From a virus, in IMG/VR virus record IMGVR_UViG_3300025030_000080, positions 1 to 64,000 of that record: 64,000 nt of DNA. One strand, 5' to 3'. The translations under genes and the position numbers were made by a program. Within the stretch, counting starts at the first letter, position 1. Every line of letters begins with the position of its first letter. Positions 5,210 to 23,775 of the stretch are shown here, one piece after another. The notes beneath the pieces are model-generated. The model saw only the letters and a list, made by a program, of their open reading frames with translations. It had not been told where the DNA came from and did not search any database.

Positions 5210-5399
5210 TTTTTCCTCCCAACATATTGGTAAAAATATTTTTATACAATTCTTTCATACTTTCGGCAGCTAAAGTACTTTGTAATAAAGAAGCCGTGGA
5301 TTGAAGTACGGCTATCTTTTCTGCTATATCAAATTCATTCAAATCTTGAAGATTAATAAGGATTTTTGCCACTCCTTCATTTATTTTTATAATATTCAT
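5202..5399 (-). CDS. Small unknown protein coupled to clamp loader
   Basis: A 65-residue protein starting MNIIKINEGVAK. Its ATG shares a base with the TAA stop of the clamp loader gene (TAATG), which decides the start over a longer frame inside that gene. It looks mostly helical (DLNEFDIAEKIAVLQSTASLL). Its place directly after the clamp loader suggests a partner in the same complex, for instance an equivalent of a small subunit, but nothing in the sequence proves it. Confidence 0.65.
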   Translation of the reverse strand: MNIIKINEGVAKILINLQDLNEFDIAEKIAVLQSTASLLQSTLAAESMKELYKNIFTNMLGGKNG

Positions 5400-7372
5400 T
5401 AAATTAAAGTTGATAAATATACGGAGCTTATAAGTCCAGCTTTTCCGCAATCATAATAATTATTTGAGAATTCTGATATAAGCTGAGCTACTCTCTTACC
5501 GTTATCATGATTTCCATTTATAAGAACAGAAGAAAGATAACCTAAGATTGCACGTCTAACACTTTCTGGCTCCTGTTCGATATTTTTAAGCATAATTGAT
5601 AATTCTTTCCAACGAGCCGGACCTGGCTCCTTAGCCATAATCTTACGACAAAGCTCTATGATGGTCGTTTCATCAGGAGTATTTTCATTAATAGCTTCAA
5701 GCTGTTTTTCTTCTTCTTTAATATCAATAATTTGGTCTAGAATAACTAGTGCTTTTCTAGCACATCCTTCTGCGGAAAATAAAATAGCATTTTTCACTTT
5801 TTCGGATAATTGAACCCCTTCGGATTCCAAAATCCAATTTACTAATGATATCATATCATGTTTACGAAGGGGGGATACGGTATATATGGTGGATCTAGTT
5901 TTTATTGTATTTAAAAGTTTTTCTGGCTCAGTTGTACAAAGAATAAAGTAAACCCCCTTTGGGGGTTCCTCTAAAATTTTTAGCATTGCATGTTGGAAAT
6001 CTTTGGTTGCTGTATGACAATTATGGGCCAGAATTCCATTTGCAAAATAAGATGGATGCCCGTCTATTTCTAAATCGTAGAATTCGACATACCCTTGATT
6101 TCTTTCTTTATTAGAAATAATACCTCGGAAAGATTCGTCATTATTTCCTGATTGGTAAATCTCAATACTTTCCACCCCAATTCTTTTAGTTTCTCCTCCT
6201 TCTTTTTGTCTCTCAATATAGGATCTCTCCCATTGTGCCCAGGCCCGTCCACTTCTATCGCTATTTTCAATTTGGTATTTCCTATATCCACTTTGTAGTT
6301 TGGAGGATATCCCAAATTGAGCTCCTTTTTTGAAGAATGTCCTGTAAGGATCACTACTTCTGTTTCCCATCCTAGAGATATTGATAACAAAGTTTGGGGT
6401 TCTGTTATTTTTCCATTCCCTCCCCTTTTCCCCTTCCAAATATGAAGGGTTCCGTTCAATCGTTTGGTAGACATAATTTTTTCCATTATTATTGGGTTTT
6501 GAGAAGGGTTGTTTTCTAACATTCTCAAGGAAGATTCTAATCTCATTCGATCCTTCGTTATTTGAGGAATTTTTTTCCATCCCTCTTTCATCTTTCGTAT
6601 TCTCTCTGGATCTGACTTCGCCTTTTTTATTTGGGGAAGAGACTCCCGGAATAGTGCCACACATCGACGAGAACAAAATCTCCTCGTCCTTTCGGAGAGG
6701 AATTTTATCAAAAAGGGAGCTTGGCACCATTCGCAAAGTTTCGTTTCTTCCATTTGGAAGACCCCCTTGTTTAAGGATGTTCCCCATTATACTACTATCG
6801 AGTCCGAAAGTAAAATATTTTTTAAGATTTTTGGCCGGAACCCACTCTCCAGAGGGGGTAAAAAATAAATGATCTTCGCTGCAAATAATATTACGGCCAT
6901 CATTAAAATTTATTTTTACCACTCTATTTATAGGAACTGTATTTTTGAAGGTATTTTTTACTTTACAAAATCCCCCCATACCTTGTACTTTGTCTCCTAT
7001 TTGAATATTTTCTATTGGTACTATTCCTTTATCGCTGCATATAGTGGTTCCTCTAGCGAAACATTCATCAAGAACTATAACTCTTACATCTCCATATAAA
7101 GGTTCAAACTGGCAACTTGCTATAATATCTCTAGCAGTATCAATCCCTCGCATATCAGAAATATTATGTTCGATATAATCCATATCGTTACAACCTAACA
7201 TTTTAGCGATTATTCTTGCAAGTGTGGTCTTTCCGTTTCCAGAGGGTCCTGAAAATAAAATCGTTTTTGGTTTATCCTCTCTTGCTAAAATTGACTTTAA
7301 ACTTTCTTTGATAGCTTCGTTACCAAAGAATTCCTCCAGTGAGGTGGGCCTGTACGATAGAGAAAGCGGCAA
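5399..7372 (-). CDS. Clamp loader ATPase subunit interrupted by an intein
   Basis: A 657-residue precursor, about 309 residues after intein removal. It is an AAA+ clamp loader (T4 gp44 / DnaX / RFC type): box II LSYRPTSLEEFFGN at 4-17, Walker A GPSGNGKTT at 42-50, Walker B VIVLDE interrupted by the intein and continuing CHTATKDFQHAML, sensor 1 near YFILCTTE, and the arginine-finger motif TRSTIY. It loads the sliding clamp found at 12.8-13.9 kb onto primer ends. The start codon is TTG after TAGGAGGAGATACC, a strong SD that decides the start. The intein sits exactly between LDE and CH of the catalytic box, so ATP hydrolysis requires splicing. Confidence 0.92.
   Translation of the reverse strand: MPLSLSYRPTSLEEFFGNEAIKESLKSILAREDKPKTILFSGPSGNGKTTLARIIAKMLGCNDMDYIEHNISDMRGIDTARDIIASCQFEPLYGDVRVIVLDECFARGTTICSDKGIVPIENIQIGDKVQGMGGFCKVKNTFKNTVPINRVVKINFNDGRNIICSEDHLFFTPSGEWVPAKNLKKYFTFGLDSSIMGNILKQGGLPNGRNETLRMVPSSLFDKIPLRKDEEILFSSMCGTIPGVSSPNKKGEVRSRENTKDERGMEKNSSNNEGSNEIRIFLENVRKQPFSKPNNNGKNYVYQTIERNPSYLEGEKGREWKNNRTPNFVINISRMGNRSSDPYRTFFKKGAQFGISSKLQSGYRKYQIENSDRSGRAWAQWERSYIERQKEGGETKRIGVESIEIYQSGNNDESFRGIISNKERNQGYVEFYDLEIDGHPSYFANGILAHNCHTATKDFQHAMLKILEEPPKGVYFILCTTEPEKLLNTIKTRSTIYTVSPLRKHDMISLVNWILESEGVQLSEKVKNAILFSAEGCARKALVILDQIIDIKEEEKQLEAINENTPDETTIIELCRKIMAKEPGPARWKELSIMLKNIEQEPESVRRAILGYLSSVLINGNHDNGKRVAQLISEFSNNYYDCGKAGLISSVYLSTLI
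6020..7063 (-). other. Intein in clamp loader (residues 104-451)
   Basis: The splice junctions are LDE|Cys104 and His450-Asn451|Cys452. Block A is CFARGTTICSDKG, and block B appears as the DGRNIICSEDHLFFT segment with the histidine of the TxxH class. Blocks F and G are VEFYDLEIDGHPSYFANGILAHN. Between blocks B and F there is no recognisable LAGLIDADG or HNH domain in the clamp-loader frame. Instead this region is Arg/Ser/Asn-rich and is overlapped by a nuclease gene in another frame (6070-6753). Confidence 0.9.
6070..6753 (-). CDS. Vsr-like PD-(D/E)XK homing endonuclease nested in the intein, other frame
   Basis: A 227-residue protein encoded in the +1 frame relative to the clamp loader. Its ATG follows AAGGGGG at a usable distance. 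It begins with a zinc knuckle (C7, C10, C27, C31) and ends with a clear nuclease core: YKVDIG (Asp156), LKIAIEVDGPGHNGRD (Glu167, Asp169, His173) and LGWKVLRFTNQEI. This matches Vsr/DUF559-type nucleases used as phage homing enzymes. The gene fills just the space between intein blocks B and F. Both frames are open for about 228 codons, so the same DNA encodes the intein linker and a free-standing nuclease. It probably cuts intein-less clamp loader alleles. Confidence 0.8.
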   Translation of the reverse strand: MEETKLCEWCQAPFLIKFLSERTRRFCSRRCVALFRESLPQIKKAKSDPERIRKMKEGWKKIPQITKDRMRLESSLRMLENNPSQNPIIMEKIMSTKRLNGTLHIWKGKRGGNGKITEPQTLLSISLGWETEVVILTGHSSKKELNLGYPPNYKVDIGNTKLKIAIEVDGPGHNGRDPILRDKKKEEKLKELGWKVLRFTNQEIMTNLSEVLFLIKKEIKGMSNSTI

Positions 7373-7419: not shown

Positions 7420-10400
7420 TTACTCCTCTGAATAATCTTTTTTCGTATGCCATGGACCGTCTATCTCCGTTACACTTATCTCTGATATTAATGGAATACA
7501 TATCCATGGATTATTTTTCAATATGTCCTCAGTCATAACTCTTTTGGTAGTATTTGCTATATATTTTAATTCATCTGGATGAATATCTCCTAAAATTTCG
7601 TCGTGAATTTCTCCTATCCATTTAGATTTCCATTCTTCTTTTATACGAAGATCATTGAGTCTATTACAAGATTCCAATAGGCAGTGAAACGCTGTTCCCT
7701 GAATAACAGTATTTATGATCTCATTCTTCTTCAAGAATCCCCTTCTGCGGAATCCATGCATCATTTCTACATAACCATTTCTTTTGTATGAATTAATTAA
7801 TTCTTCTTGAAATTTCTTTACCCCTTTATACTTTTTCCAAAATTCTTGTTCTGCCTTTTGAACCCTCATCATAGGTAGATCATGGTATCCCCTACTAACT
7901 AAGTCAGCATGTATATTCTTGAAATATGATCCGTAAAATTCTGCAAATACAAAAGCATTTTTGGCATCAAATCTATGTGTTTTAGCGTCAAATCCAGATA
8001 GTTGTAAAAAATCTGACCACTCTTGGTGTATATCTGCTCCTTGTTCTCTCTCTTTCATTAAAACTTTATCTTTTGAATAGCATGCTATAATTCCTACTTC
8101 ATGACCTCCGTAATCCGCAGCCAATATGATATTTCCAGGAGAAGGAATCATTCCCCCTCTTACCATAATCATAGCTTCTTTATCTCTTTTGGGAATGTTC
8201 TGAAGATTAGGCGAATCAGAGTTATGAACGCATATTTCGTTAGCTATAAAATTTGAAAATTCCTCTACTTGGATATCATAAACTTCCGAAAATAAATTAA
8301 TATCTTCTATTTTGATTATAATATGATTTTTGGTAGTAAAAGAGCCAAATTGATTCCCCCATTTTCTTTGATAATATACCCCGTAAATTTTTGATAATCT
8401 TTGAGTTTTATAATAATTAAATCCTAATAATTCTATAGCTGCACTAGGTCCTTGTTTTAATATATTTATCAATTTATTTTTACTTATAAATTTCCCATTT
8501 CTATCCCACCTAGATTTTACCACAAATAAATCAATTTTTTCTAATTTAGAATGGTATTTAAAAGTACTAAAATCAAATTCTTTTCTACCCGTTACTACTC
8601 CTTTTCCTATGACCAGTAGTTTTAGTAATTGGTACCTACTTATTTTTTTATAATTATGATTTTCCTTTCCAATTTTATATGTTATTTTACCTTCTTTATG
8701 TAATTTTTTCATGGTAATAGTTCCACGCAAACGAAGGGTTTCCTTTGGTACTTTATTCATATGTAGTGCACAATGGGAATTTTTAGTGCGCTTTTCCAAG
8801 TTATTCGGAATATTGTTAAAATGATTTTCATCTTTATGATGAACAATATCTCCTAATTCTAACTTTTCTATTAATTGATCATATACTAGTACTTGATCTG
8901 CAATAGGAATATTTCCTGTAAAATAAACTCTATCGTCCCCTGTAGTTCTACCCATAGACAACACGCTAAATTTGGGAGATTTTTTAGATTGATTCGCTCC
9001 TCGTAAATCAAATTTTAATAAATTTTGGGCTTCTACATATTTTCCACTAACAGTTCTTACCAAATGCTCAGGGGTTAGATCTAAATACCCCCTTTTTTTC
9101 CATTTTTGACCCGATTGCCAATGAATTCTTATTACTTTTTTGACTCCAGTTTTCCCCGCCCAAAGAACTTTTCTTATGGCTGGTTTTAAATTATTATCAT
9201 AACAATAGACAAAATCTCCTTCTTTGATATCTTCTATAGGAATTCCTTTAGAAAATTTTGATACATCCCGAACTACTTCAATTATTGTTCCTTTAGCTAT
9301 GCAACTACTGCGGTAGGTCCTCACTAAATGTAAATTAAAATTAGAATGTAATTTTTTATCAACTTGTAATTCTAATATTCCGTCAATATATGTAGTTTTT
9401 AATTTATCTAATTGTCTCTTTTTAACCAAGTTTTTAGCAAAGGGAAGATCCAAACTTTCCAAAACATCCTTATCCACAGACTCATTATCTTTTTCAGTTC
9501 TTTTGACCGATTTAATTCCAAGGTAATCAAAAAATAATTTTTTCAAATCGTCTGGGGAACCTAAATTTATATCTCTCCCCATTTTTGATTTAAAGAGATT
9601 AGCCTCAGATGTACGAAGAAGTTGTTTTTCAAGAAAGGATAATCTCTTTTCCAATTTAACTTGAGTATCTTGGTAGTATTCCGTATTAACCGTAATTCCT
9701 GTCATTTCCATATCAGAGAAAGTTAAAATTCCTTTATGAAATAAATCGTAGGCTCTTGAAGCTGCTTCTGATTCTTTATTACCTTTATCTAAGAAATCCC
9801 ATTGCTTCTCAGCCAATCTCATAGTGAAATAGGCGTCCAGTCCGTTATATTTCAATAGTTCATTTAACGGACATTTTTGCATAGAATTAAATTTAGTTCC
9901 GGGGGCAGCTTTTTTATATTTTGATACTTCTCCTCCGTATTCATATCCCCAATTTATAAATGTTTGAAAGTCTAGCCCGGTAAATTGAGGACGTTCGTCA
10001 ACGATGTGGGAGAATACCATCGTATCCCAATACCATCCTTTTGGTTCTTCTCCGATTATTATTTTACTCCAAGGGTGCTCCATCTGAATATTTTGAGCTA
10101 CTTTTAAAATATCGGGGTCCGAAAGTACCCTGCGCCACGCCGTATTTACCCTATCTAACTGTCCTGATTCCCACGCTCCGGGGTAGTTACCGGGGAAGGA
10201 ATAGGCTAGATCCTCCCCGTAAATAGCGACAGCCGTAGACACAATAGAGTGTCCGGGGAAGTAGGGACGAATTCCCGTAGTTTCATAGTCAAAGGCTATC
10301 GTAGGTTTTTGATCTTTAATAGTTTTTAATAAATTTAAAACTTCATCTACGTTGGTCAAGCATTTTATTTTTTGGGAATAATCTATTTCTTCTATATCAG

Positions 10401-11031
10401 GAAGATTCGAGTTTATTTGTTCCATTGCCCATTTGAGATCTAGTTTAAAAATAGATTCTGCATCTGGATTTCTAATAACAAATGAAGGATGGTAAAGGGG
10501 AATAATCCAAGCCTTTATTTGAACGTCGGGAATACAAAGTTTTCTCCAACGTCCGATAGATAAATTGGTAGAAATTGGTTGAGTTCTATTCATGAAAAAC
10601 GCTTCTACTGCTTTTGCCCCAAAAAGTATGATGTATTTTGGTTGGTATTTCTGAATAGCGGAACGCCACATAAATTCACACGCTTTTAATTCCCTAGTGG
10701 TTGGAGTTCGATTGGTTCCCTTATCCGTAGCAGTACGACAAGCAACAGCATTAGTTTTCCAGAAATCTCTATCTAAATCGTACCCCATAGTCCGAAAACA
10801 TTTACGAAGAAAATGGCCAGTATCACCCACGAAAGCGTTATTTAACTTATCCTCTGTTTCACCAGGAGCCTCCCCTATTATTAAAGTTCTGAGTAACCCT
10901 TCCCCCGTGGGGGGAATCTTAGGGGATAAAACTTTTTTATGCAATCCGCACGCATCGCAGCCTATGGCACCTCGGATTGTTTTTGGTTGAACACTTTTAG
11001 ATTGTGTAGGTAGGTCGAAGAATCCGTTCAT
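7420..11031 (-). CDS. Uracil-DNA glycosylase / family A DNA polymerase fusion with intein
   Basis: A 1203-residue precursor. Residues 1-210 are a family 4-type uracil-DNA glycosylase: Cys25/Cys28 with later cysteines for a 4Fe-4S cluster, GEAPGETED at 53-61 and HPSFV at 191-195. Next comes a 3'-5' exonuclease: Asp248/Glu250 in FDYETTG, Exo II near 311-321, and YNGLDAYF with Asp399. The polymerase has motif A AADYGGHEVG (Asp973), motif B with Arg1020, Lys1024 and Tyr1033, and motif C GEIHDEI (His1143, Asp1144). An intein splits it just before SPNLQNIP. Polymerase and proofreading residues look intact. The glycosylase domain would couple uracil removal to synthesis. It ends 47 bases before the clamp loader. 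Confidence 0.93.
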   Translation of the reverse strand: MNGFFDLPTQSKSVQPKTIRGAIGCDACGLHKKVLSPKIPPTGEGLLRTLIIGEAPGETEDKLNNAFVGDTGHFLRKCFRTMGYDLDRDFWKTNAVACRTATDKGTNRTPTTRELKACEFMWRSAIQKYQPKYIILFGAKAVEAFFMNRTQPISTNLSIGRWRKLCIPDVQIKAWIIPLYHPSFVIRNPDAESIFKLDLKWAMEQINSNLPDIEEIDYSQKIKCLTNVDEVLNLLKTIKDQKPTIAFDYETTGIRPYFPGHSIVSTAVAIYGEDLAYSFPGNYPGAWESGQLDRVNTAWRRVLSDPDILKVAQNIQMEHPWSKIIIGEEPKGWYWDTMVFSHIVDERPQFTGLDFQTFINWGYEYGGEVSKYKKAAPGTKFNSMQKCPLNELLKYNGLDAYFTMRLAEKQWDFLDKGNKESEAASRAYDLFHKGILTFSDMEMTGITVNTEYYQDTQVKLEKRLSFLEKQLLRTSEANLFKSKMGRDINLGSPDDLKKLFFDYLGIKSVKRTEKDNESVDKDVLESLDLPFAKNLVKKRQLDKLKTTYIDGILELQVDKKLHSNFNLHLVRTYRSSCIAKGTIIEVVRDVSKFSKGIPIEDIKEGDFVYCYDNNLKPAIRKVLWAGKTGVKKVIRIHWQSGQKWKKRGYLDLTPEHLVRTVSGKYVEAQNLLKFDLRGANQSKKSPKFSVLSMGRTTGDDRVYFTGNIPIADQVLVYDQLIEKLELGDIVHHKDENHFNNIPNNLEKRTKNSHCALHMNKVPKETLRLRGTITMKKLHKEGKITYKIGKENHNYKKISRYQLLKLLVIGKGVVTGRKEFDFSTFKYHSKLEKIDLFVVKSRWDRNGKFISKNKLINILKQGPSAAIELLGFNYYKTQRLSKIYGVYYQRKWGNQFGSFTTKNHIIIKIEDINLFSEVYDIQVEEFSNFIANEICVHNSDSPNLQNIPKRDKEAMIMVRGGMIPSPGNIILAADYGGHEVGIIACYSKDKVLMKEREQGADIHQEWSDFLQLSGFDAKTHRFDAKNAFVFAEFYGSYFKNIHADLVSRGYHDLPMMRVQKAEQEFWKKYKGVKKFQEELINSYKRNGYVEMMHGFRRRGFLKKNEIINTVIQGTAFHCLLESCNRLNDLRIKEEWKSKWIGEIHDEILGDIHPDELKYIANTTKRVMTEDILKNNPWICIPLISEISVTEIDGPWHTKKDYSEE
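8221..9303 (-). other. HNH-bearing intein in DNA polymerase (residues 577-937)
   Basis: A 361-residue intein between YRSS|Cys577 and Val-His-Asn937|Ser938. Block A is CIAKGTIIEV; block B includes DLTPEHLVRT (residues 651-660). The central endonuclease is HNH type: HHKDENHFNNIPNNLE at 731-746 with a following His/Cys segment. Block F is SEVYDIQVEEFSNFIAN and block G is ICVHN. The insertion splits the conserved S-S/D-SPNLQNIP motif that binds template-primer, a usual hotspot for polymerase A inteins. Confidence 0.92.
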
Positions 11032-17425: not shown

Positions 17426-17622
17426 TACTTGTCTCCCTCGGCCTCTCTCTTTTTCCTTTCTTCATCTCCAGGGAAATCCTTCGTCCAATCTAACCCCCCT
17501 TTATTCATAAGTCCTGAGGAAGAGCCAGATTTAGAGGATTTTCCTCCTTTTGATGATTGGCTCTGTAACCGTTCGACTAATTTGCGACTTATAGAACCAG
17601 TTTTTCTACTCTTGCCCCCCAT
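17425..17622 (-). CDS. Small Ser/Lys/Gly-rich protein
   Basis: A 65-residue low-complexity basic protein (SSKGGKSSKSGSSSG) probably disordered. No family recognised. It overlaps the upstream homing endonuclease gene by 17 bases. Confidence 0.5.
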   Translation of the reverse strand: MGGKSRKTGSISRKLVERLQSQSSKGGKSSKSGSSSGLMNKGGLDWTKDFPGDEERKKREAEGDK

Positions 17623-18574
17623 TTGATACCCCCTTTTTAAATTTTCTTCTCTCCCGGCCCTCTTTTACTTTAGCCCTAGATTTTGGATCAGACCAAAGTT
17701 GTTTCATAGTTTTAGATAATTTTGATTTTGATTCTTCACTATTTTGTTTTCCAGTATTAGACTCTATGTTTTTTCTTCTATATTCTGGATTATTCCATTT
17801 TTCTTTTATAGATTGAGATAAGGACTTTAACATATTTGATCTCATTTCTGGATCAGCCCATTGATTTGTAGCAGATTCTGATGCTTTTCTACTAAATTCA
17901 GGATCAGATGCTATAGTATTTGCTCTATTTAAAACTCTTTTTGATCGAATATCAGGGTCTTCCCATTCTTTTTTCCTCAGAATAGATCCAATTTGACGAG
18001 ATTCTGGTGATCTCATAATTTCTAATATTTTGTCCTTAAATTTAGGGTTTTCCCACCTATCTTTAGTACTTTTAGACATTATAGCTTTTACTTCTGGGTT
18101 ATCAAGTCCCTTTTTAATAGCATCTTTCATTCTATTTTTATATTCTGGATCTTCCCATAAATTTTTAACTGATTCAGATATTTGAGATATAATTTCAGGA
18201 TTATCTTTGTATCTATTTTTAGTTAATTCAGATAGCTTTACTTTAGATTCCTCCGACCATTTTATCCCCCTATTGGATTCTGCTATTTCCCGAATATTAT
18301 ACCCATTTTCTTGTTTATATGATTCATAGTAATCTAACCAAATTTGTTCTCTAGGAACTAATTGAGTTAAATCATAAACTAATTCTATTACCATAAATAC
18401 AAAAGATTCTTCCCCATATTTACAATAGGCAGATTGAATGTGTTGAGTATGTTCTCCTCTACGAAGTAACCATAAATGCCCCCTTTCCCATCTAATATAT
18501 ACATCTTCAGAAGATCCTATATACTTCTTCCCATTTATTCTATTAAGTATCATGTATACACCGGAAATTTTCAT
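17606..18574 (-). CDS. GIY-YIG homing endonuclease with NUMOD3 repeats
   Basis: A 322-residue free-standing homing enzyme. GIY-YIG core: SGVYMILN at 4-11 and KKYIGSSEDVY at 17-26, with Arg28 and the PREQIWLDYYES segment carrying the metal-binding Glu. The rest is a long row of NUMOD3-like DNA-binding repeats of the form (S/T)K.rWeNPefk.k, at least seven of them. The start overlaps the TGA of the previous gene (ATGA) and follows GAGAAG. It most likely targets a site in or near the neighbouring unknown gene. Confidence 0.9.
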   Translation of the reverse strand: MKISGVYMILNRINGKKYIGSSEDVYIRWERGHLWLLRRGEHTQHIQSAYCKYGEESFVFMVIELVYDLTQLVPREQIWLDYYESYKQENGYNIREIAESNRGIKWSEESKVKLSELTKNRYKDNPEIISQISESVKNLWEDPEYKNRMKDAIKKGLDNPEVKAIMSKSTKDRWENPKFKDKILEIMRSPESRQIGSILRKKEWEDPDIRSKRVLNRANTIASDPEFSRKASESATNQWADPEMRSNMLKSLSQSIKEKWNNPEYRRKNIESNTGKQNSEESKSKLSKTMKQLWSDPKSRAKVKEGRERRKFKKGVSNGGQE

Positions 18575-19344
18575 TTTATTCTTCTCTTTAAAATAGGGGG
18601 GATTATTTTTTCTTTCTGTAAATCCAAAATCCCCCCGCAGTCGTCGAAAATACACCCCGCCACAACTGCTTGCATATTATTATGCAGTCCATCTATCATA
18701 AAATATTTACATCCTTCTGGAAAATAGATATTAATTTTATCATTGAAATTAAATAATGCTAAGAAATCTCCTGTTCTTATTCCAAGAGGAGAAATAGAAT
18801 CTGGAAGAACATCTTCTGGTTCTGTTAAGCCGAGGCCCTCCATTTCTATTTTTCTTTCGAGCAGTATCAGAGATCCGGCGTAGATATCTCGTTGAAGTAT
18901 TTTTATTTCTCCCCCTCTAGTTACAAATTCAATATGCGATAAATTCTCGTCCAAAAGGTCTAACGAGGATTTATGAAAAGGGATCTTCCACTTCATTTTT
19001 TCTGTATCATAAAATTTATAAAATAACTCTTCTACTTCTTGAAAAGTTTGAGTAGGTATTCTACATTTTTTCTTACGGAGAAATTCTTCTCCTTTTTGAA
19101 GGAAAGTTATGCTATTTCCGTCTGCAGTAAAATTTGGGGAATCATAATCGCTTAGAAAAAAACGAATTGGTTCTGGAAATTCATTCTTAGTTGCCTCGAA
19201 CCGAAGTATCATGGTTTTATCGCTGTTGAGAATATAAATAACATTTTCCCAACAGAATGCAGAGTTTTTTTGATTCCCTGATTGTTCCAAAGCAACTCCA
19301 TATGAAAATATTCTTTCTACTTCTAATTCTCTCAAAATTGTCAC
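18571..19344 (-). CDS. Unknown beta-rich protein between homing genes
   Basis: A 257-residue protein starting with GTG behind AAGGAGAATAAG. It is rich in predicted strands (SHIEFVTRGGEIKILQRDIYAGSL; GIRTGDFLALFNFNDKINIYF) and ends CKYFMIDGLHNNMQAVVAGCIFDD. The strand-rich repeats faintly recall a sliding clamp or processivity factor but I see no firm motif. GIY-YIG genes lie on both sides (one broken), which is typical for a conserved phage gene targeted by homing. Confidence 0.65.
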   Translation of the reverse strand: MTILRELEVERIFSYGVALEQSGNQKNSAFCWENVIYILNSDKTMILRFEATKNEFPEPIRFFLSDYDSPNFTADGNSITFLQKGEEFLRKKKCRIPTQTFQEVEELFYKFYDTEKMKWKIPFHKSSLDLLDENLSHIEFVTRGGEIKILQRDIYAGSLILLERKIEMEGLGLTEPEDVLPDSISPLGIRTGDFLALFNFNDKINIYFPEGCKYFMIDGLHNNMQAVVAGCIFDDCGGILDLQKEKIIPPILKRRIK

Positions 19345-21211: not shown

Positions 21212-21916
21212 TTACAATGCTTCAAAATTTAAGTTTCTTTTATTTCTAGCTTTTGCTTTTCCTTCAACGGATTTGGCAATATGTTCCGGACTAAGATGTC
21301 TTCCAATAAGGGAAGCAGATAAATTGGCTAAATATTTTGGGTTATTGCTTCTCCTTATAAACCCTTCCGCCATTTTAGCTCTAAATTTTGGATCTGCCCA
21401 TTGTTTTTTAGCAACAACTGACTGATTTTTTCTAAAATTAGGATCTTTTCCCCTTTCTTGATTCATTTCTAATATTTTTATTTTATGTTCAGGACTTTTC
21501 TTTCTGCCTTTCAAAAGAGAAATTACTTTATTTCTATATTCTGGATCTAACCAATGATCTTTACTAGTTTGAGAAATTATTTTCTTAACTTCTTCTGAAT
21601 GTTTATTTCCTAAACAAGAATTAGCATATCTACAAACATTATACCCATATCTATCGTCATATGATTGGTAGTAATCTAACCAAGTTTGCTCTCTGAAAGA
21701 TAATTGAGACAAATCTTTTACTATTTCCATTATTATAAATTCAAAATTTTCTTCTCTATATTTATGATAAGCCCTTTGAAAATAAAGAGAATGGTGAGTT
21801 CCTTTACGAAGTTCGCATAAATGATTAGTCCACCTACTATATAAATTTACAGCAGATCCGACATATCTTTTTTCATTAATTTTATTAACTATCATATAAA
21901 TACCTGATACTTTCAT
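21212..21916 (-). CDS. GIY-YIG homing endonuclease with NUMOD3 repeats, second copy
   Basis: A 234-residue homing enzyme: SGIYMIVN at 4-11, KRYVGSAVNLYSRW with Tyr18/Gly20 and the catalytic Arg, FREQTWLDYY with Glu, then NUMOD3 repeats (SQTSKDHWLDPEYRNK, VVAKKQWADPKFRAK). It is related to the copy at 17.6-18.6 kb but shorter. It lies right after the C-terminal piece of a radical SAM gene that also carries an intein. Confidence 0.9.
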   Translation of the reverse strand: MKVSGIYMIVNKINEKRYVGSAVNLYSRWTNHLCELRKGTHHSLYFQRAYHKYREENFEFIIMEIVKDLSQLSFREQTWLDYYQSYDDRYGYNVCRYANSCLGNKHSEEVKKIISQTSKDHWLDPEYRNKVISLLKGRKKSPEHKIKILEMNQERGKDPNFRKNQSVVAKKQWADPKFRAKMAEGFIRRSNNPKYLANLSASLIGRHLSPEHIAKSVEGKAKARNKRNLNFEAL

Positions 21917-22570
21917 TCACCGTACCAAATTTTCCAACATTTCTAGACGGAAATCGGAACTTTCAATATATCTCCAAATTATGTTTTCCTCTCGATCTCT
22001 TCCATATGGTTCCATTCCTTGGGCCCAATCCGGAAAATAAGCCGGATTGCTCATTCTTAAATTCCACGAGTTCTTAACTTCTTTCATCAAAGTTTCTGAT
22101 AACCACCCTCCACGTTCCTCTACGAAAGTGTTATATTCTCCCCACGTTACGGGTCGGGGGGCGTTGTTTCGAACAAACCTAGCTGCAATCATATTGTTTC
22201 CGTAGGAGAATCCTCCACCTAAAGGAAGATAGATGTCAGATATAGAACAGCAAATATCGTCGTCATTGATAGGAGAGTTGCCAAAATCAAAAGTGGATGA
22301 AGAGAATCCCTGATTTTTCATTAATTTCATAAATTCCCCTAAGACTAGGGAACCTAGCCACTGACTATCTGACATTATAAGAAACATTCGATGGAAATCT
22401 ATCCCTAACATTTCCATTTGGCGCTTTACTCCGGGGGCGGAAGCGGAATAACTATATGTATCGAAAGTAATGTGCTTGATTCCAATTTCCTTTACTCTAC
22501 TGATCCATTCTTCCACTGCATCTTTTTCATCGTTTACGAAAATCATTAAGGGTTCGATCCTAGCCACCAC
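21917..22570 (-). pseudogene. C-terminal part of a frameshifted radical SAM protein
   Basis: This 217-residue frame starts exactly where the upstream radical SAM frame goes wrong: AGVRVV in that frame and ARIEPLMIF in this one form AGVRVVARIEPL, the expected continuation, if one copy of an 11-bp tandem repeat is removed. It holds the C-terminal barrel and tail (ITFDTYSYSASAPGVKR). With the repeat present, two separate polypeptides result, or no functional enzyme. The ATG at its start lies inside the repeat boundary and has no convincing SD. Confidence 0.75.
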
Positions 22571-23775
22571 CCTAACACCACCCTAACCCCTGCATCTACA
22601 AGAGCTTTTGCAGCAAGTAAGCGTTGGGAGAAGGAAGGTGCCCCAGGCTCTAACTTTTTATTTAAAGCATCATCAGAAGATATCATAGTCATATGGACAG
22701 CAGAACCGGCCTTATTATCTGCCAAAGCTCTAACGTAGTCTTCTCTACCGATTAACGCTGATTTTGTGTTCACCATAATAGGATAAACTTGATCTGATAA
22801 ATAACGCATGAAATTCAAACTAATTCCTTTTTGCGCTTCGATAGGAAGAAAATCTTCAAATCGAATTCCTAGACGGATGGGAATTTGAAGACTTATTGCT
22901 TTTGGTAATTCTGGTCCATCAATCTTTTGGCCTCGAAATTTCATTAATTTATCCATCTCCGTTCGGAAGTATTCCGGTCGGCAATGGCGTATTCCAATTT
23001 CTTTGGGATTATCAAAAAATGATGTATATAATGATGATCGGAATGAATCTGCAAAACAATTGTGAACTAAAATCCCCTCCGCGAAATAATTATTATTGGG
23101 CACGCATTCAAAATTATAAACTATTTTTTTATTGCTAGTTTTTGCTCTATATATAGATTCAATTCTTCTCCATGCCCATTTATTAGAATTATTGGGGGGA
23201 TAAAAAACAATCATATCATGAATACTTAATTGTCCAGCATCTATCCATCCTCTACTAGTAAATACAGGATGTTCTAAAGTAAGTTTTAAAATTTTTTCTT
23301 TTATTTTGATAACTATCAAATCTTCTGCGGTTCGACTCATTATTTTTGTAACTACTGACTTTTCTGATTCTAAGTGAGTTCTGTAAGTTTTTAATGAAAC
23401 TACCAAATCTCCTTCTTTGATATCCTTAATATTCTTTTTCTTTCCGCCCCACATTTGTATTTTAGTTAATGGCGGCAGACAATATTTGCACTGGTAACTG
23501 CAAGATAGGGCATCGTAAGTATCTGAATTTAAAGGAAGTGGACAATGAGCGGCTCTTAATGAAACTTCAATAAATGAAGTAATTTCCTCTTTATTTAGCA
23601 TTCGCTGTTTAACTTCAAATTTTTCGCTATCGAATGAAAATTCGGAATAATTTACTTTACGGCCTTTCTCACGAACTAATCCTTTATGCTTCTCCATTGA
23701 TTCGAGTTGAGATCTACGAGGGATAATGGTTTTGACTATTTCGCGCAACTCCCAGTAATCTTTAAATATAGTCAT
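22546..23775 (-). CDS. Radical SAM protein (SPL-like), N-terminal part, with mini-intein
   Basis: A 409-residue frame. The AdoMet/4Fe-4S motif CSYQCKYC starts at residue 92 but an intein (99-239) separates CSYQCKY from the third cysteine (Cys240). After splicing the barrel continues FADSFRSSLYTSFF, then KAISLQIPIRLGIRFEDFLP and VNTKSALIGREDYV, resembling spore photoproduct lyase-like radical SAM enzymes. It ends out of frame at an 11-bp duplication; the rest of the barrel is in the adjacent frame (21917-22570). A related intact enzyme is at 25.5-26.7 kb. The reaction is unknown. Confidence 0.85.
   Translation of the reverse strand: MTIFKDYWELREIVKTIIPRRSQLESMEKHKGLVREKGRKVNYSEFSFDSEKFEVKQRMLNKEEITSFIEVSLRAAHCPLPLNSDTYDALSCSYQCKYCLPPLTKIQMWGGKKKNIKDIKEGDLVVSLKTYRTHLESEKSVVTKIMSRTAEDLIVIKIKEKILKLTLEHPVFTSRGWIDAGQLSIHDMIVFYPPNNSNKWAWRRIESIYRAKTSNKKIVYNFECVPNNNYFAEGILVHNCFADSFRSSLYTSFFDNPKEIGIRHCRPEYFRTEMDKLMKFRGQKIDGPELPKAISLQIPIRLGIRFEDFLPIEAQKGISLNFMRYLSDQVYPIMVNTKSALIGREDYVRALADNKAGSAVHMTMISSDDALNKKLEPGAPSFSQRLLAAKALVDAGVRVVLGWWLGSNP
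22565..22586. repeat. 11-bp tandem duplication that frameshifts the radical SAM gene
   Basis: The plus-strand unit CACCACCCTAA occurs twice in direct succession. Eleven is not a multiple of three. Deleting one copy joins the two halves of the radical SAM protein in a single frame reading AGVRVVARIEPL. Confidence 0.9.
23059..23481 (-). other. Mini-intein in radical SAM protein (residues 99-239)
   Basis: A 141-residue intein without endonuclease. It starts CLPPLTKIQMWGG, has LTLEHPVFTSRGW (block B, with T..H) and ends YNFECVPNNNYFAEGILVHN followed by Cys240. It interrupts CxxxCxxC between residues 7 and 8, so the +1 residue of the extein is the third cluster cysteine itself. No frameshift or stop lies inside it. 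Confidence 0.9.

Follow-up and report, generated by a model that had tools for sequence, protein, structure and literature searches.

Split inteins and intron-encoded nucleases provide the closest known counterparts of the locus described here. In 2009, Dassa et al. reportedly described the gp41-1 split intein and 'fractured genes' in which a nuclease lies between the intein halves. I-Bth0305I is intron-encoded. EDxHD (Vsr-like) homing endonucleases of the I-Bth0305I type are an established family (PMC3943268), and a hidden out-of-frame HNH endonuclease, the ShiLan domain, was found in a phage methylase, where the authors think that the peptide remains in the host protein (PMC11855218). We analyzed the first 64,000 nucleotides (the window) of a virus record of 76,087 bases (IMGVR_UViG_3300025030_000080). 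Its clamp loader gene is very probably interrupted by a mobile homing intein whose endonuclease, judging from the sequence and predicted structures, is a separate gene that overprints the intein coding sequence in the +1 frame and is translated on its own.

Like I-Bth0305I, the nested nuclease has the catalytic fold and the acidic/histidine motif, is phage-borne, and is tied to a self-splicing element, but its reading frame differs from that of the intein that it overlaps, and its N-terminus has an FCS-like zinc finger. The nuclease lies between Hint-N and Hint-C as in the gp41-1 fractured genes, and gp41-1 is the closest relative of the intein by both sequence and fold; however, the window intein is contiguous and its nuclease is overprinted. 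ShiLan is likewise a homing endonuclease read in a different frame from its host gene, within an insertion that does not interrupt the host frame, but it belongs to the HNH family, has no intein or intron splicing domain, and shows no detectable Shine–Dalgarno (SD) sequence, whereas the present gene is nested within a full Hint intein. Canonical LAGLIDADG/HNH inteins carry the nuclease at the same standard place between Hint-N and Hint-C; unlike theirs, the nested nuclease would not be part of the spliced polypeptide. This breaks the rule that an intein endonuclease belongs to the spliced protein, and would uncouple nuclease expression from splicing.

In the gp41-1 loci that were read out, the intein halves were separated by other genes, including a GIY-YIG-like ORF in some of the loci. 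Scanning 30 of the 50 fetched loci with the nuclease HMM revealed no EDxHD gene between the halves. Descent of gp41-1 split inteins from nested ones was not supported, as the sole nuclease-HMM match (L330, E 0.0016) was located well upstream of the intein and the genes between the halves included a GIY-YIG-like ORF. Out-of-frame homing endonucleases without an intein (ShiLan) and the EDxHD family are already published, while a literature search, with the preprint on non-canonical actinobacteriophage inteins (10.1101/2025.01.02.630785) outside its coverage, turned up no case of an intein whose endonuclease is overprinted. We consider it reasonably likely that these loci form a large and previously undescribed class of phage inteins with an overprinted +1 homing endonuclease, specialized for the Walker-B/DExH motif II of P-loop ATPases, in which the register is held since only that one can encode any protein without a forced stop in the intein frame.

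The clamp loader (phrog_5846 match, 2.3e-56) is encoded on the minus strand, as are all the features of this locus, by a single open frame (5399-7372; 657 aa). The N-extein (7064-7372) has a TTG start preceded by the SD sequence AGGAGG and ends with the residues VIVLDE at Walker B, which is the insertion site. The intein (6020-7063) comprises 348 residues (ORF residues 104-451) running from Cys1 to His-Asn, and the C-extein (5399-6019) starts at Cys+1 (CHTATKDF...). The clear splice ends noted in the initial annotation were confirmed by Cys1, block B (CSEDH), block F (EFYDLEIDGHPSYF), the His-Asn/Cys+1 end, and a match to the Pfam family Intein_splicing (7.2e-10). The sequence features of a class 1 Hint intein were all present, namely Cys1, blocks A, B, F, and G, and a C-terminal His-Asn followed by Cys, Ser, or Thr, contiguous with both exteins. 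The closest solved intein by sequence was gp41-1 (1.4e-11, phmmer), which was also the best PDB match of the predicted model (7.5e-7, Foldseek), and the model had the Hint fold. When 37 inteins were modeled in their own frame with AlphaFold2, the pLDDT was about 95 for both Hint-N (residues 1-96; 6776-7063 in the window) and Hint-C (residues 277-348; 6020-6235), which contains the strand VESIEIY and blocks F and G, and mostly below 50 for residues 97-274. The intein-frame spacer (residues 97-276; 6236-6775) is thus open and predicted to be disordered. As had been claimed, the intein frame lacks an endonuclease: nothing nuclease-like was found in that frame of the clamp loader, and the nuclease is in the +1 frame.

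The nested gene (6070-6753) encodes an EDxHD/Vsr-like (DUF559) putative homing endonuclease of 227 aa plus stop, covering intein residues ~104-331. It has its own ATG, preceded at a distance of 7 nt by an SD-like sequence (AAGGGGGT; 6761-6768; dG -11.2) that lies within the intein coding sequence. The zinc-knuckle, Vsr-like character proposed for this product held up, with a Pfam match to DUF559 (2.8e-12) and a Cys4 zinc finger at the N-terminus. In the family alignment, D156, D169, H173, D182, and K185 were invariant and E167 was nearly invariant, so that the active-site residues E, D, H, and D of the EDxHD type are all present; these conserved residues would correspond to those of I-Bth0305I. 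AlphaFold2 models of 72 nucleases reached a pLDDT of 93.7 and showed a Vsr-like catalytic fold, for which the best PDB match was the catalytic domain of I-Bth0305I (3r3p, probability 1.00) with a modest Foldseek E of 1.8e-3. The FCS zinc finger (2w0t) was matched weakly. No Rfam match was obtained at E up to 0.5, which ruled out a group I intron around the nuclease.

Frame-blind protein searches identified 121 non-redundant nested copies in clamp loaders and SF2 helicases, all in the +1 frame and none fused in frame; some contigs were common to several scans, and 121 is the count after removing redundancy. The first queries retrieved 81 viral loci, in 80 of which the nuclease was nested in a long ORF, always in +1, and a second query taken from the helicase group gave 79 nested loci of 80. 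In bacterial assemblies, 14 of 15 strong relatives were nested, and seven weak matches to DUF559 only were not. Plasmids yielded one weak match (NZ_OW485606.1, 62317-62646), inside an SNF2-related gene of a Rhodovastum plasmid. The insertion site was nearly always Walker B or DExH motif II (DE/C...HN/CH in clamp loaders and SF2 helicases, with the variants DEAH/C, DEIHK/C, and DEFH/C); one nested intein was found in a Dam-like methylase (L081). The nuclease never shared the frame of the splicing domain, and a search of the relatives for in-frame intein–nuclease fusions, which the initial annotation had named as a possible counterexample, found none. The intein halves were not on separate polypeptides, as the intein frame was a single open frame in 120 of the 121 copies. 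The out-of-frame, free nuclease gene was correctly described as a departure from the usual homing arrangement, but it is a large conserved class and not an oddity.

Cultured phages show the same layout. All 40 matching phage records in the isolate collection have the nuclease under a CDS named helicase, ATPase, or left unnamed, and it is annotated in none of them; being contained within a longer gene, this conserved gene escapes the annotation of cultured phages. Seven isolate phages were read out (CP-T1, phi673, MR14, 1.088.O, 1.194.O, 159E43-1b, and 104E43.1), and all seven were nested in +1.

The intein was precisely absent from homologous genes. The nested intein of CP-T1 corresponds to an empty site (DEAHH) in vB_VchM-138, with exteins 97.2 and 96.0% identical. 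In related Vibrio helicases, the same site is empty (1.024.O, 141O35-1, and 142E35-1), occupied by a 150-aa mini-intein (K389, K459, and PS65A.1), or occupied by a nested intein (1.088.O, 1.194.O, K391, and 159E43-1b). This is a natural overlapping-gene system in cultured Vibrio phages with empty, mini, and nested alleles, in which overprinting, homing, and intein decay are directly testable. A scan with a single protein returned clamp loaders of the same phage only, and an alignment query retrieved inteinless clamp loaders 80% identical to the window gene (L122-L125), one of which (L123) has NECH in place of DECH at Walker B. Another clamp loader (L294) contains a 152-aa mini-intein in which the last 34 nuclease codons are kept in the +1 frame and the rest is lost. 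The remnant is 71% identical to residues 194-227 of the window nuclease, and the surviving part of the nuclease is the part that the intein also needs. The correlation between Hint and nuclease distances was only moderate (Mantel r=0.45), and long joint inheritance of the two is thus not proven.

The nuclease probably spreads the intein. Ribosomes starting at the clamp loader would read the intein frame and produce Hint-N, a disordered spacer of ~180 residues, and Hint-C, and the motifs and fold suggest that the Hint domain would then excise itself and restore the clamp loader. Those starting at the internal SD/ATG would produce a free nuclease with an FCS zinc finger and an EDxHD domain, which may cut clamp loader alleles that lack the intein, close to the DE/CH site at Walker B; repair of the cut allele would then transfer the complete intein. 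Alternatively, a nested and expressed nuclease may have lost its homing function and have another role, such as cleavage of competitor phage DNA or replication-linked cleavage, with the intein kept passively. DUF559-type domains do occur in other nucleases (PDB 3hrl), but the patchy presence with near-identical exteins, the mini-inteins, and the single conserved insertion motif fit a homing cycle, and the free-standing nuclease relatives L266 (3355-3996) and L010 (4788-5321) directly adjoin helicase genes that lack an intein and might serve as their targets. We therefore regard loss of homing as unlikely.

Both frames had been reported to stay open for about 228 codons, and this was the case: synonymous shuffling of the window nuclease gave 12 expected stops in the intein frame against none observed, and the open intein frame is thus not due to chance. 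Over the nuclease, one intein-frame stop was found in 27,624 codons. For 72 nuclease genes, 888 intein-frame stops were expected by synonymous shuffling and one was observed, compared with 1,520 observed and 1,377 expected in the other frame. A T at the wobble position occurred in one of 8,306 cases before AA, AG, or GA codons versus 26% before other codons (121 genes), and it is by this avoidance of T-ending codons that the intein frame is kept open over the nuclease. In free-standing relatives, the equivalent frame was interrupted by 12 (L010), 16-17 (L089), and 29 (L266) stops. The constant +1 register is explained in the same way. The register used can accommodate every amino-acid pair without imposing a stop on the intein frame, whereas in the other out-of-frame register, a Met that precedes I, K, M, N, or T makes a TGA unavoidable, and 116 of the 121 nucleases would contain forced stops if placed there. 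This stop-avoidance rule accounts for the single register and hints at how other overprinted homing genes may be sought. The only stop was a TAG in the intein frame within the nuclease of L007 (4937-4939). Recoding of this TAG was not supported, as TAG also terminates the L007 nuclease ORF; the copy may be broken or may represent a step towards a split intein.

SD sequences had a mean dG of -6.65 at the nuclease starts and of -4.53 at internal in-frame start codons, and were thus stronger at the former (p=1.7e-9). This suggests that the nuclease would be initiated independently on the clamp loader mRNA, although a few nuclease starts lacked a clear SD. If ribosomes instead left the clamp loader frame by programmed frameshifting, the product would be an intein–nuclease fusion and the nuclease would not use its own start; the two frames are always in the +1 relation that such a system would need. 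This constant register is already accounted for by stop avoidance, however, and the nuclease starts have their own ATG with an SD stronger than that of the internal controls. In addition, the nuclease-frame ORF opens just 11 codons ahead of the ATG in the window and at the ATG itself in L006. Frameshifting is thus unlikely.

The comparison of synonymous and nonsynonymous changes suggested in the initial annotation was run on close pairs and showed constraint on the nuclease frame (dN/dS 0.03-0.15) against 0.73-2.15 in the intein frame. For example, 1.088.O and 1.194.O differed at 3 first, 0 second, and 32 third positions of the nuclease codons. For distant pairs (648), a null for the intein-frame identity was obtained by re-coding each nuclease synonymously without stops. 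Over nuclease residues 1-180, the intein-frame identity equaled the null (difference of -0.01 to +0.04), ruling out selection on the spacer peptide, the conservation of which did not exceed that expected from synonymous coding of the nuclease. It was above the null by 0.08 for residues 181-195, 0.19 for residues 196-210, and 0.21 for residues 211-225. A first overall test had appeared significant because the dual-coded tail was pooled with the rest and closer relatives were included. In the intein frame, the bulk of the overlap is thus open but free of constraint, whereas in the tail both frames are constrained. The truly dual-coded stretch (6073-6235) corresponds to nuclease residues ~174-227 and Hint-C residues 277-331, about 54 codons that are predicted to be ordered in both products and include the nuclease strand GWKVLRFTN and the intein strand VESIEIY. 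Conservation and the predicted models together show that, over its last ~45-55 codons, the nuclease gene also encodes the first elements of Hint-C. The extended dual coding put forward for the whole overlap was accordingly narrowed to these codons, the remainder being an open, unconstrained spacer and not a region encoding two functional proteins.

Given this strong purifying selection on the nuclease frame, the recurrence of the two-frame layout in independent contigs at 30-57% protein identity and in isolated phages, which excludes the sequencing error that the initial annotation had raised, and the failure to find an in-frame relative, there is hardly any chance that the overlap arose through decay of an in-frame intein endonuclease displaced by two compensating indels or that it is a sequencing or assembly artefact, common as such errors generally are in metagenome contigs.

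Other inteins and endonuclease genes were noticed in the window, all on the minus strand. DNA polymerase I (PolA; 7420-11031), which has an N-terminal UDG-like domain, contains an intein of its own, with a probable HNH motif in frame; this conventional arrangement contrasts with the nested intein of the same genome. A Radical SAM protein (22546-23775) carries a mini-intein of ~150 aa without a nuclease, and two free-standing GIY-YIG endonuclease genes (17606-18655 and 21212-21916) have repeated NUMOD-like tails. Among the relatives, the clamp loader of L006 (1083-4067) carries an intein in the P-loop in addition to the nested intein at Walker B, and the PS65A.1 helicase (L114) likewise contains two inteins.
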